Positions 43,470 to 46,338 of a stretch of DNA of 64,000 nucleotides are shown piece after piece. The translations under genes were made by a program, and so were the position numbers. Position 1 is the stretch's first letter, and the number at the start of each line of letters is the position of its first letter. Location: the NCBI GenBank assembly GCA_904420175.1, contig CAJFUF010000029.1, positions 1-64,000 on the forward strand. Reading direction: 5' to 3'. Origin of the DNA: Candidatus Schneewindia gallinarum (GTDB lineage: Bacteria > Bacillota > Clostridia > Oscillospirales > Ruminococcaceae). A model generated the notes under the pieces. It did not search any database and had not been told where the DNA came from. It saw only the letters and a list, made by a program, of their open reading frames with translations.

Positions 43470-43604
43470 GTAGAAACCCCCCTTTCAGACAAAACTTTAC
43501 GGTTTAAAATTATAGCCCATCCTTTTCAAGCTGTCAATGACTTTTTACCGATTTCCCCGGTTTTTTGCACCCCCGCCGGTTTTTCACCTTTTTCTTTCCA
43601 TAAG

Positions 43605-43633
43605 TTGAAAGATGGGCCGTTTTATGTTACAAT
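43605..43633 (+). promoter_or_regulatory. Candidate dnaA promoter TTGAAA-N17-TACAAT
   Basis: Motif match with 17-nt spacer upstream of dnaA. Confidence 0.5.
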
Positions 43634-43675: not shown

Positions 43676-44995
43676 ATGGAATCGTTCAACGACGTATGGA
43701 ACAGTGTCAAGGAACTTTGTAAGGAGCGTATCACCAGTGTCGCCTATAATCTGTGGATTTGCTGCATTGAAAACCCGGAATTTAAGGACGACACGGTTTT
43801 CCTATATGTCAGAAGCATGCTGCAAAAAAACGTGCTGGATGCAAAATACATGAAAACGCTGAAAACCGCCTTTGCAGAGGTGATGGGGTTTGATGTCGCC
43901 ATCACCGTTGTGGCGGAGGAGCAGAACCAGCCCAAACAGGAACCGGTGGAAAATGCGGATACTGGATTTTTAAACGGCGGGGTGCAGAACTACACCTTCG
44001 CCAACTTTATTGTGGGCCCCTCCAACAAGTTTGCCCATGCGGCATCCCTTGCGGTGGCCTCCAATCCTTCCGGTGCATACAACCCGCTGTTCATCTACGG
44101 CGGCAGCGGCCTTGGAAAAACCCACCTGCTGTATGCCATCTGCAATGAAATCAACAAAAACAACCCCTCCTCCAATATCATCTACGTCAAGGGGGAGGAA
44201 TTCACCAACGAGCTGATTGCCGCCATCCAGTCCGGCGGAACGCAGGACTTCCACCTGAAATACAGGGAGGCGGACGTGCTGCTTGTGGACGACATCCAGT
44301 TTATCTCCGGCAAGGACAGCACGCAGGAGGAGTTTTTCCACACCTTCAATGCCCTGTACCACGCGGGCAAACAGATTGTCCTGACAAGCGACCGGCCCCC
44401 GAAGGAGATTAAAACATTGGAGGACAGGCTGCGCACTCGGTTTGAATGGGGCCTGCTTGCCGACATCCAGCCCCCGGATTTTGAGACGCGTATCGCCATT
44501 ATCCGGCGCAAGGCTGCAGCCATCGACATCCATATCCCGGACGAGGTGTCCGAATTTATTGCCAACAAATTAAAAAGCAACATCCGCCAGCTGGAGGGGG
44601 CAGTGAAAAAAATCAAGGCCTACCAGCTGCTGACCAATACGCCCCCTTCCATCACCATTGCGCAGACGGCCATCCGGGATATTCTCAGCGACACGCAGCC
44701 CGTCCCGCTGACGGTGGAAAAAATCCTTGGGGAGGTTTCCCGTACCTACGGCATCTCCGTTGCGGACATCCGCAGTGAAAAGCGCACCTCCTCCATCTCC
44801 GCCGCGCGGCAGGTGGCCATGTACGTTGTCAGGGAAGTTACCTCCATGTCCCAAAGCGACATTGGCAAGGAATTTAACGGCCGCGACCACTCCACCGTGG
44901 TCTACACCTTAAAGCAGGCCCGCAAGAATATGGAGCAGAACCGCGACTTCCGCGAGATGGTGGAGGACATCATCAAAAACATTAAAAATACCTGA
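43676..44995 (+). CDS. dnaA: Chromosomal replication initiator DnaA
   Basis: GGSGLGKTHLLYAI, VLLVDDIQF, FNGRDHSTVVYTLKQA. Confidence 0.98.
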   Translation: MESFNDVWNSVKELCKERITSVAYNLWICCIENPEFKDDTVFLYVRSMLQKNVLDAKYMKTLKTAFAEVMGFDVAITVVAEEQNQPKQEPVENADTGFLNGGVQNYTFANFIVGPSNKFAHAASLAVASNPSGAYNPLFIYGGSGLGKTHLLYAICNEINKNNPSSNIIYVKGEEFTNELIAAIQSGGTQDFHLKYREADVLLVDDIQFISGKDSTQEEFFHTFNALYHAGKQIVLTSDRPPKEIKTLEDRLRTRFEWGLLADIQPPDFETRIAIIRRKAAAIDIHIPDEVSEFIANKLKSNIRQLEGAVKKIKAYQLLTNTPPSITIAQTAIRDILSDTQPVPLTVEKILGEVSRTYGISVADIRSEKRTSSISAARQVAMYVVREVTSMSQSDIGKEFNGRDHSTVVYTLKQARKNMEQNRDFREMVEDIIKNIKNT

Positions 44996-45231
44996 TGCTT
45001 TTCAACAGCTTTCCCGTTGATTCCACCTTTTTCTTTCAACACGCATTGTGGAAGAAATTGAGGGGCCCTCTCTTTCACAAACAGTCAACAGACTTTTCTT
45101 TTTTCAAAATGCTTCACAAACCGCCTTGCTGACAGGAAATGGCGGGATATTCAACTTTTCAACGACCCCTACTACTAATACTATTTTATATCCTATCCTA
45201 TTAAGAAAAAATTGAAGGAGGAACGCCTCTT
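44996..45231 (+). other. oriC: Probable oriC (dnaA-dnaN intergenic) with DnaA-trio-like element at 45169-45185
   Basis: Position between dnaA and dnaN; CTACTACTAATACTATT followed by AT-rich TTATATCCTATCCTATTAAG; repeated TCAAC cores. Confidence 0.75.
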
Positions 45232-46338
45232 ATGAAATTCACCTGTGACCGGCAGCTGCTGTCCAGCGCCGCCCTGAATGCCTCCCGTGCTGTCGTTGCA
45301 AAATCCAGCGTACCCGCACTGGAAGGCCTTCTTATCAAAACATCCAACAATGCCGTTTCCATCACCGGCTACGACCTGGAAAAAGGGATTACAACCGGGA
45401 TTGCCGCCACGGTGGAAAACCCCGGAACCATTGTGGTGGGCGCGCGCATTTTCTGTGAGATTTTAAGAAAGCTTGACACGGACACAGTGGAAATCATCTC
45501 CGATAACTCCCTTCTTGTGATTATCAAAGGCGGCAAAAGCGAGTTTTCCATTATGGGCAGCAGTGCGGAGGACTACCCGGAAATGCCCGTCTTTGAAGGG
45601 GAAAACACCCTGAGCATGGACAGCGCCGTGCTGAAGGAAATGATTGAACAGACCATTTTTGCCGTCTCCACCAACGAACAGAAACCCATCCTGACAGGCG
45701 CACTGTTTGAAATCAGCGAGGGCATGTTCAATATGGTTGCGATGGACGGGTTCCGCCTGGCCATTAGGAAGGAGCCGGTTCAGGGTGCGGCGGACGCCAG
45801 CTTTGTGGTCCCTGCAAAGACGCTGGCCGATGTGTCCAAGATGATTGAGGACGACTACCCTGTTACCATCTCCATTTCAAAAAAGCACATCCTGTTTAAT
45901 TTTGCAGGCTATCAGATACTATCCCGCCTGCTGGAGGGAACCTTCTTTGATTATAAAAAGGCCATCCCTAGCACCTTTACCACCAGCGTCAAAATATCGG
46001 TGCGGCAGTTTATCGACTCCATCGACCGGACGGCGCTGATTATTACCGACCGGCTGAACAGCCCCATTGAGATTTTGTTTGAAAACGATGCGGTTTCCTT
46101 CAGCTGCACGACACCCCTTGGAAAAAGCTATGATGAATTTCCCCTTGCCATTGAAGGAAAGGCGGTCAAAATCGGGTTTAACAACCGCTTTTTGCTGGAC
46201 GCGTTAAAGGCCACCGGCTGTGACGAGGTAATTTTACAGTTCAACGGGCCGCTTTCCCCTGTCATTATCAAACCCCTTTCCTCCGACAGCTTTGTTTTCC
46301 TTGTGCTGCCCGTGATGCTGAAGGACATGAAAAAGTAG
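45232..46338 (+). CDS. dnaN: DNA polymerase III beta sliding clamp
   Basis: [41 protein letters not shown]-terminal FLVLPVMLK. Confidence 0.97.

Follow-up and report, generated by a model that had tools for sequence, protein, structure and literature searches.

A DnaA box relaxed at position 6 in the origins of Oscillospirales and its link to DnaA residues 433 and 435

Judging from the dnaA–dnaN spacers of the relatives compared, position 6 of the DnaA box is relaxed from C to C or A, and this change is shared by the lineage across the whole order Oscillospirales. The letter used at this position is linked to two residues of the DnaA protein, 433 and 435 in the E. coli numbering. The oriC as such is ordinary; the relaxed, lineage-shared box letter is real, and its link to the two residues is a testable new rule. 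The DnaA box is regarded as nearly universal, and both the origin finders and the proposed broad inhibitors of DnaA domain IV depend on that. As one base is relaxed throughout a large order of bacteria from the gut, finders requiring TTATCCACA will overlook the boxes of this order or put them in the wrong place. The matching of two amino acids to one base also makes a direct and cheap test of joint change in an essential initiator and its origin.

Results

The Locus and Its Gene Order

The window, i.e., the whole 64 kb stretch of DNA analysed here, comes from contig C29 of the draft genome (G000) of an uncultured bacterium of the gut type, 1.77 Mb in 39 contigs. Its closest named relatives are Oscillospirales, e.g., Candidatus Pseudoruminococcus and Merdimmobilis hominis. 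The gene order around dnaA is that of the standard Firmicutes origin, with the minus-strand genes mnmG, mnmE, jag, yidC, and rnpA followed by the plus-strand genes dnaA, dnaN, yaaA, recF, gyrB, and gyrA. The dnaA gene occupies positions 43676–44995 of the plus strand (TIGR00362, 502 bits; PF08299 domain; alignment to 1J1V) and dnaN positions 45232–46338 of the same strand (TIGR00663, 281 bits). The spacer between them (44996–45231, plus strand), the unwinding part of oriC, has orthologous spacers in 287 genomes. The sign of the GC skew switches at ~46 kb, and the cumulative minimum of the window falls at 46311.

The DnaA protein of the window contains domains I, III (AAA+), and IV (helix-turn-helix), all of which were recognized by their profiles (PF11638, PF00308, and PF08299; TIGR00362). 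The genome has only one other DnaA-ATPase-like match (L002, G000:C24:14888-15256), which is an IstB/DnaC-like ATPase and no second DnaA. In another genome, the DnaA frame (L007, G100:C54:166-1491) is interrupted within domain IV by one in-frame TAA, which is probably an assembly error.

A likely dnaA promoter, TTGAAA-17-TACAAT, is present at 43605–43633. A minus-strand TTCAAC core (43604–43609) overlaps its −35 hexamer and is a possible site for the self-repression of DnaA. A perfect consensus promoter, TTGACA-17-TATAAT (43537–43509, minus strand), is directed away from dnaA, to the rnpA–yidC side.

Boxes, Trios, and AT-Rich DNA in the Spacer

The architecture of the dnaA–dnaN spacer is that of an ordinary basal unwinding system (BUS); overall, the origin is not an unusual one. 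Two boxes (45148–45164) stand in tandem directly ahead of the DnaA-trios (45169–45183), as in other systems of this kind. The first box, TATTCAACT (45148–45156, plus strand), was assigned by its position, which is that of B. subtilis box 6, and by a pattern unique in the genome; the second, TTTTCAACG (45156–45164, plus strand), was assigned by its position, that of B. subtilis box 7. The boxes are followed on the same strand by the GC-rich spacer ACCC (45165–45168), identified in alignments with relatives, where it is mostly GCCC or ACCC and where CCCCTACTA is enriched. Then come five DnaA-trios, CTA CTA CTA ATA CTA (45169–45183, plus strand; of the 3'-GAT-5' type on the other strand); a BUS is expected to have at least three such repeats. 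The trios are found at the equal place in 204 of the 287 relatives. The AT-rich DNA on their 3' side (45184–45215, plus strand) is probably the unwinding site, by analogy with B. subtilis and C. difficile; the A+T content of 45169–45231 is 70%. An earlier note, made from the letters of the window, had pointed to CTACTACTAATACTATT at 45169–45185 ahead of AT-rich DNA, and the run is indeed there.

The core of the first tandem box lies 19 bp ahead of the first trio and that of the second box 11 bp ahead of it, which are the commonest and the second commonest places among relatives. The distance of 12 bp between the end of the first box and the trios is inside the published peak of 10–13 bp. Both boxes are of the A6 type, i.e., they lack the C found at position 6 of the canonical TTWTNCACA box, and both retain T4, A7, and C8 of the canonical core in the form of TTCAAC. 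The number of mismatches to TTATCCACA is four in TATTCAACT and three in TTTTCAACG.

More boxes of the plus strand were found farther from the trios by sequence match: two distal boxes of the A6 type, TTTTCAACA (44999–45007) and CTTTCAACA (45033–45041), and a weak box of the C6 type, GATTCCACC (45019–45027, core 45021–45026). A distal box of the C6 type, TCTTCCACA (45047–45055, core 45048–45053), matches on the minus strand, and CAGTCAACA (45082–45090, plus strand) is a weak candidate by its letters. The earlier note had listed TCAAC at 45002, 45036, 45085, 45151, and 45159 as well as its inverse at 45016, with all coordinates correct, and had overlooked the two boxes of the C6 type.

Chance Expectation and Uniqueness in the Genome

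The 236-bp spacer was compared with 20,000 of its dinucleotide-preserving shuffles. TTCMAC was observed six times against a shuffle mean of 0.48, and none of the 20,000 shuffles reached six. The six copies of TCAAC (P = 5e-5), the tandem TTCMAC pair with a spacing of 8 bp (P = 5e-4), and the trio run CTACTACTA or TACTACTA (P = 0.0019) were likewise rare in the shuffles. An exact scan of the 64 kb window for TTATNCACA gave a single match, on the minus strand at 2432, with 0.79 expected by chance; therefore, neither flank of dnaA contains a consensus box, as had been claimed before.

In the genome of 1.77 Mb, the only mismatch-free copy of TTCMAC-N2-TTCMAC-N5-CTA is at 45150–45171, and the next-best sites have two mismatches, which is the level of the reversed-pattern control. 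A strong box cluster elsewhere, named in the earlier note as the finding that would speak against its reading, was not seen. Such a rival cluster was rejected, as the TTWTCMACA sites, judged from the first 100 of the 135 matches, are scattered and just one complete tandem-box-plus-trio pattern exists in the genome. TTWTCMACA has 135 matches in the genome and the reversed pattern 43; the excess may come from codon usage or from dispersed DnaA sites.

Box Position 6 across Relatives

The dnaA gene and its downstream spacer were collected from 287 distinct genomes of the window's family, the order Oscillospirales, and other Clostridia. TTTTCAACA is a box of the A6 type and TTTTCCACA one of the C6 type. 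The top enriched words in the first set of 98 spacers were the trios, CCCCTACTA, TTTTCCACA, and TTTTCAACA, with 69 observed versus 1.8 expected for TTTTCCACA and 83 versus 2.8 for TTTTCAACA. The boxes of all 287 spacers have A at position 6 in 693 cases, C in 664, T in 35, and G in 30.

The A6 and C6 boxes of these relatives share their flanks, and both types lie preferentially 19 and 11 bp ahead of the first trio. The sites at −19 and −11 carry A in 29 and 20 cases and C in 31 and 23, with G and T near none, and TTCAAC and TTCCAC interchange between relatives. As the flanks and both trio distances are shared, the two types are described as one box degenerate at one base, TTTTCMACA. We infer from this conservation of position and context that the A6 sites act as DnaA boxes.

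DnaA Contact Residues

The box contacts of E. coli DnaA are R399, P423, D433, H434, T435, and H439, and C. difficile retains all six, as do the further Firmicutes of the same comparison (PMC7561715). The recognition helix (434–451) reads 5'-TnCACA-3', and the T435M variant is defective in box binding (PMC5742627). The alignment of the window DnaA to E. coli DnaA (1J1V) gives R399, S423, D433, H434, S435, and Y439 (R370, S394, D404, H405, S406, and Y410 in its own numbering). The motif GRDHSTVVY, previously thought canonical, departs from the E. coli set by S for T435 and Y for H439, and outside the motif P423 is replaced by S, i.e., three of the six contacts differ; R399, D433, and H434 are retained. 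The earlier idea of a degenerate or shifted box code at a DnaA-trio origin is supported and can be sharpened to position 6; the premise of a canonical DnaA motif is not supported.

P423 is retained in 67 of the 287 proteins compared. Residue 435 is T in 83 of them, S in 191, and A in 13; residue 433 is D in 243, N in 22, and H in 20; and residue 439 is H in 74 and Y in 181. No open-access paper was found that gives the base contacted by D433.

Residues 433 and 435 Predict the Letter at Position 6

The fraction of A6 boxes in the 287 genomes is 0.24 with T435, 0.55 with S435, and 0.86 with A435; for residue 433, it is 0.19 with H, 0.50 with D, and 0.92 with N. These values suggest a rule by which T435 or H433 goes with C, D433 together with S435 (the window genome) with A or C, and A435 or N433 with A. 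When the genomes were grouped by GC content, A6 use was lower with T435 than with S435 in all five bins, and it was highest with A435 in the three bins where this residue is present.

A phylogenetic regression was performed with GC content as a covariate on a tree of DnaA minus domain IV. The effects of N433 (p = 1.3e-3), A435 (p = 4.6e-3), and T435 (p = 0.026) were retained under this control, and that of H433 was borderline (p = 0.066). The three-level residue code gave p = 1.3e-8 in 302 genomes, including those behind the code itself. The S435–T435 contrast is clustered on the tree and, taken alone, was weak under tree control before pooling. A435 has ~8 separate origins on the tree and no contrary pairs. 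The independent-pair tests for A435 and N433 all went in the expected direction, with too few pairs for significance. As most shifts between A and C occur with residues 433 and 435 unchanged, the sign tests driven by the A6 majority are low-powered.

For the held-out test, the rule was fixed beforehand and 74 new proteins were classed from residues 433 and 435 alone. The A:C counts were 37:6 in the predicted-A6 class, 15:62 in the predicted-C6 class, and 85:71 in the mixed class, to which the window's type belongs. The Fisher test gave p of ~1e-12 for the pooled sites and 2.5e-4 for the genome majorities; the latter value is safer, since the sites in one genome are not independent. The results showed that residues 433 and 435 predict the position-6 letter in unseen genomes, with two exceptions: L392 has A435 (with P423 and H439) yet only C6 boxes, and L396 has H433 yet mainly A6.

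Two other residues were considered as the switch and rejected. P423 varies widely, and P versus non-P has no tree-controlled link to position 6; H439Y has no such link either.

In N433 genomes (e.g., L120, L213, L142, and L428), position 6 of the trio-adjacent boxes is A or G, with TTTTCGACA and TTTGACA among the forms present, as if N433 read a purine. Those of H433 genomes (e.g., L022, L145, and L180) include TCCGCA forms, with G for A at position 7, and H433 may shift a second base of the box.

Discussion

A Proposed Code of Initiator and Origin

We hold it to be quite probable that the spacer is the half of a normal Firmicutes-type oriC that is unwound, in which the lineage would use TTTTCMACA boxes and residues 433 and 435 would set the letter at position 6. 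Model DnaA proteins require C at this position. The DnaA of the lineage would accept C or A, and where both are tolerated, base composition would pick the letter. The chemistry that we infer starts from C and A being the two bases with an amino group in the major groove, from which D433 could accept a hydrogen bond at C6 or A6. The methyl group of T435 would clash with that of the thymine opposite A6, and S435 or A435 would admit A6 because the clashing methyl is lost. N433 would pair with the N7 of a purine and would fit A or G. With somewhat less assurance, we favour the view that the Oscillospirales have a natural, evolving initiator–origin code, with C for T435 or H433, C or A for D433 with S435, and A for A435 or N433; N433 perhaps also reads G. 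The relaxed intermediate state, represented by the window genome, would allow the origin and the initiator to drift with function kept.

By analogy with B. subtilis, domain IV of DnaA would bind the two tandem boxes adjoining the trios, and the box-bound DnaA would be the platform for an ATP-DnaA oligomer on the trio strand (PMC6669920, PMC8287927). As in B. subtilis, this oligomer would then open the AT-rich DNA in the direction of dnaN.

Alternative Explanations

The same boxes could be explained by an unchanged specificity, in which an ordinary DnaA uses low-affinity degenerate boxes with the help of cooperativity and the trios, and A6 results from AT mutation pressure. A6 use does decrease as GC content rises (t = −5.6), and low-affinity boxes adjoining trios are already known (PMC8287927). 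However, only A and C are used at position 6, whereas the equally AT-rich T stays at the shuffle expectation: the D433 S435 genomes have T in 36 cases versus 30 expected and A in 353 versus 39. The residue effect also persists in the held-out genomes and under GC control, for which reason GC content was rejected as the entire cause. We consider this explanation unlikely, and slightly more unlikely still the one by shared ancestry, according to which clades differ in both the letter and the residue with no causation between them. The independent-pair sign tests, being short of significance, are consistent with shared ancestry, but A435 is found on ~8 separate branches with no contrary pairs, and the phylogenetic regression with GC speaks against it for both N433 (p = 1.3e-3) and A435 (p = 4.6e-3).

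It is far less probable that the TTCAAC repeats are bound by another protein and that the real DnaA boxes or the origin lie elsewhere. Such a reading draws on the fact that DnaA is the predicted protein on these repeats. However, TTCAAC and TTCCAC have common flanks and both trio distances and swap between relatives, the choice between them tracks DnaA residues 433 and 435, and the genome contains no further tandem-box-plus-trio site. The preferred reading, boxes relaxed at position 6 in an ordinary origin, is the one compared with known systems below.

Comparison with Known Origins

The BUS of B. subtilis oriC (boxes #6 and #7 plus trios) likewise lies between dnaA and dnaN and has two boxes in tandem, a short spacer rich in GC, trios of the 3'-GAT-5' type, and AT-rich DNA (PMC6669920, PMC8287927). 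It differs in box 6, which is the consensus TTATCCACA there, whereas the window boxes are of the A6 type. In Clostridioides difficile oriC2, where unwinding was demonstrated, a clear run of trios, CACCTACTACTATTACTACT, also follows dnaA on its downstream side (PMC7561715). Unlike the window, C. difficile retains all six contacts, P423, T435, and H439 included, and has TTWTNCACA boxes (PMC7561715).

Boxes shifted in a whole lineage are described for Thermotoga (a 12-mer), Epsilonproteobacteria (T5), and Cyanobacteria (T3, TTTTCCACA) (PMC6669920, PMC5043019, PMC4674748). The shifted box of Thermotoga is similarly linked to altered domain IV residues, whereas position 6 is unchanged in all three groups, and the available sections of these papers give no one-base residue rule. 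For phytoplasmas/mollicutes, boxes of the form TT(T/A)TCAACA have been proposed, and Cyanothece has a single predicted TTATCAACA (PMC3322544, PMC4674748). These predicted boxes have the same letter change at position 6, but they are single predicted cases, for which the sections available give no link to a DnaA residue; the phytoplasma review itself is doubtful of the motif (PMC3322544). The open-access papers searched describe neither an A6 box common to a whole lineage of Clostridia nor a 433/435 rule. The sequence features tested place the window origin in the BUS class, except that its boxes lack the canonical letter at position 6.
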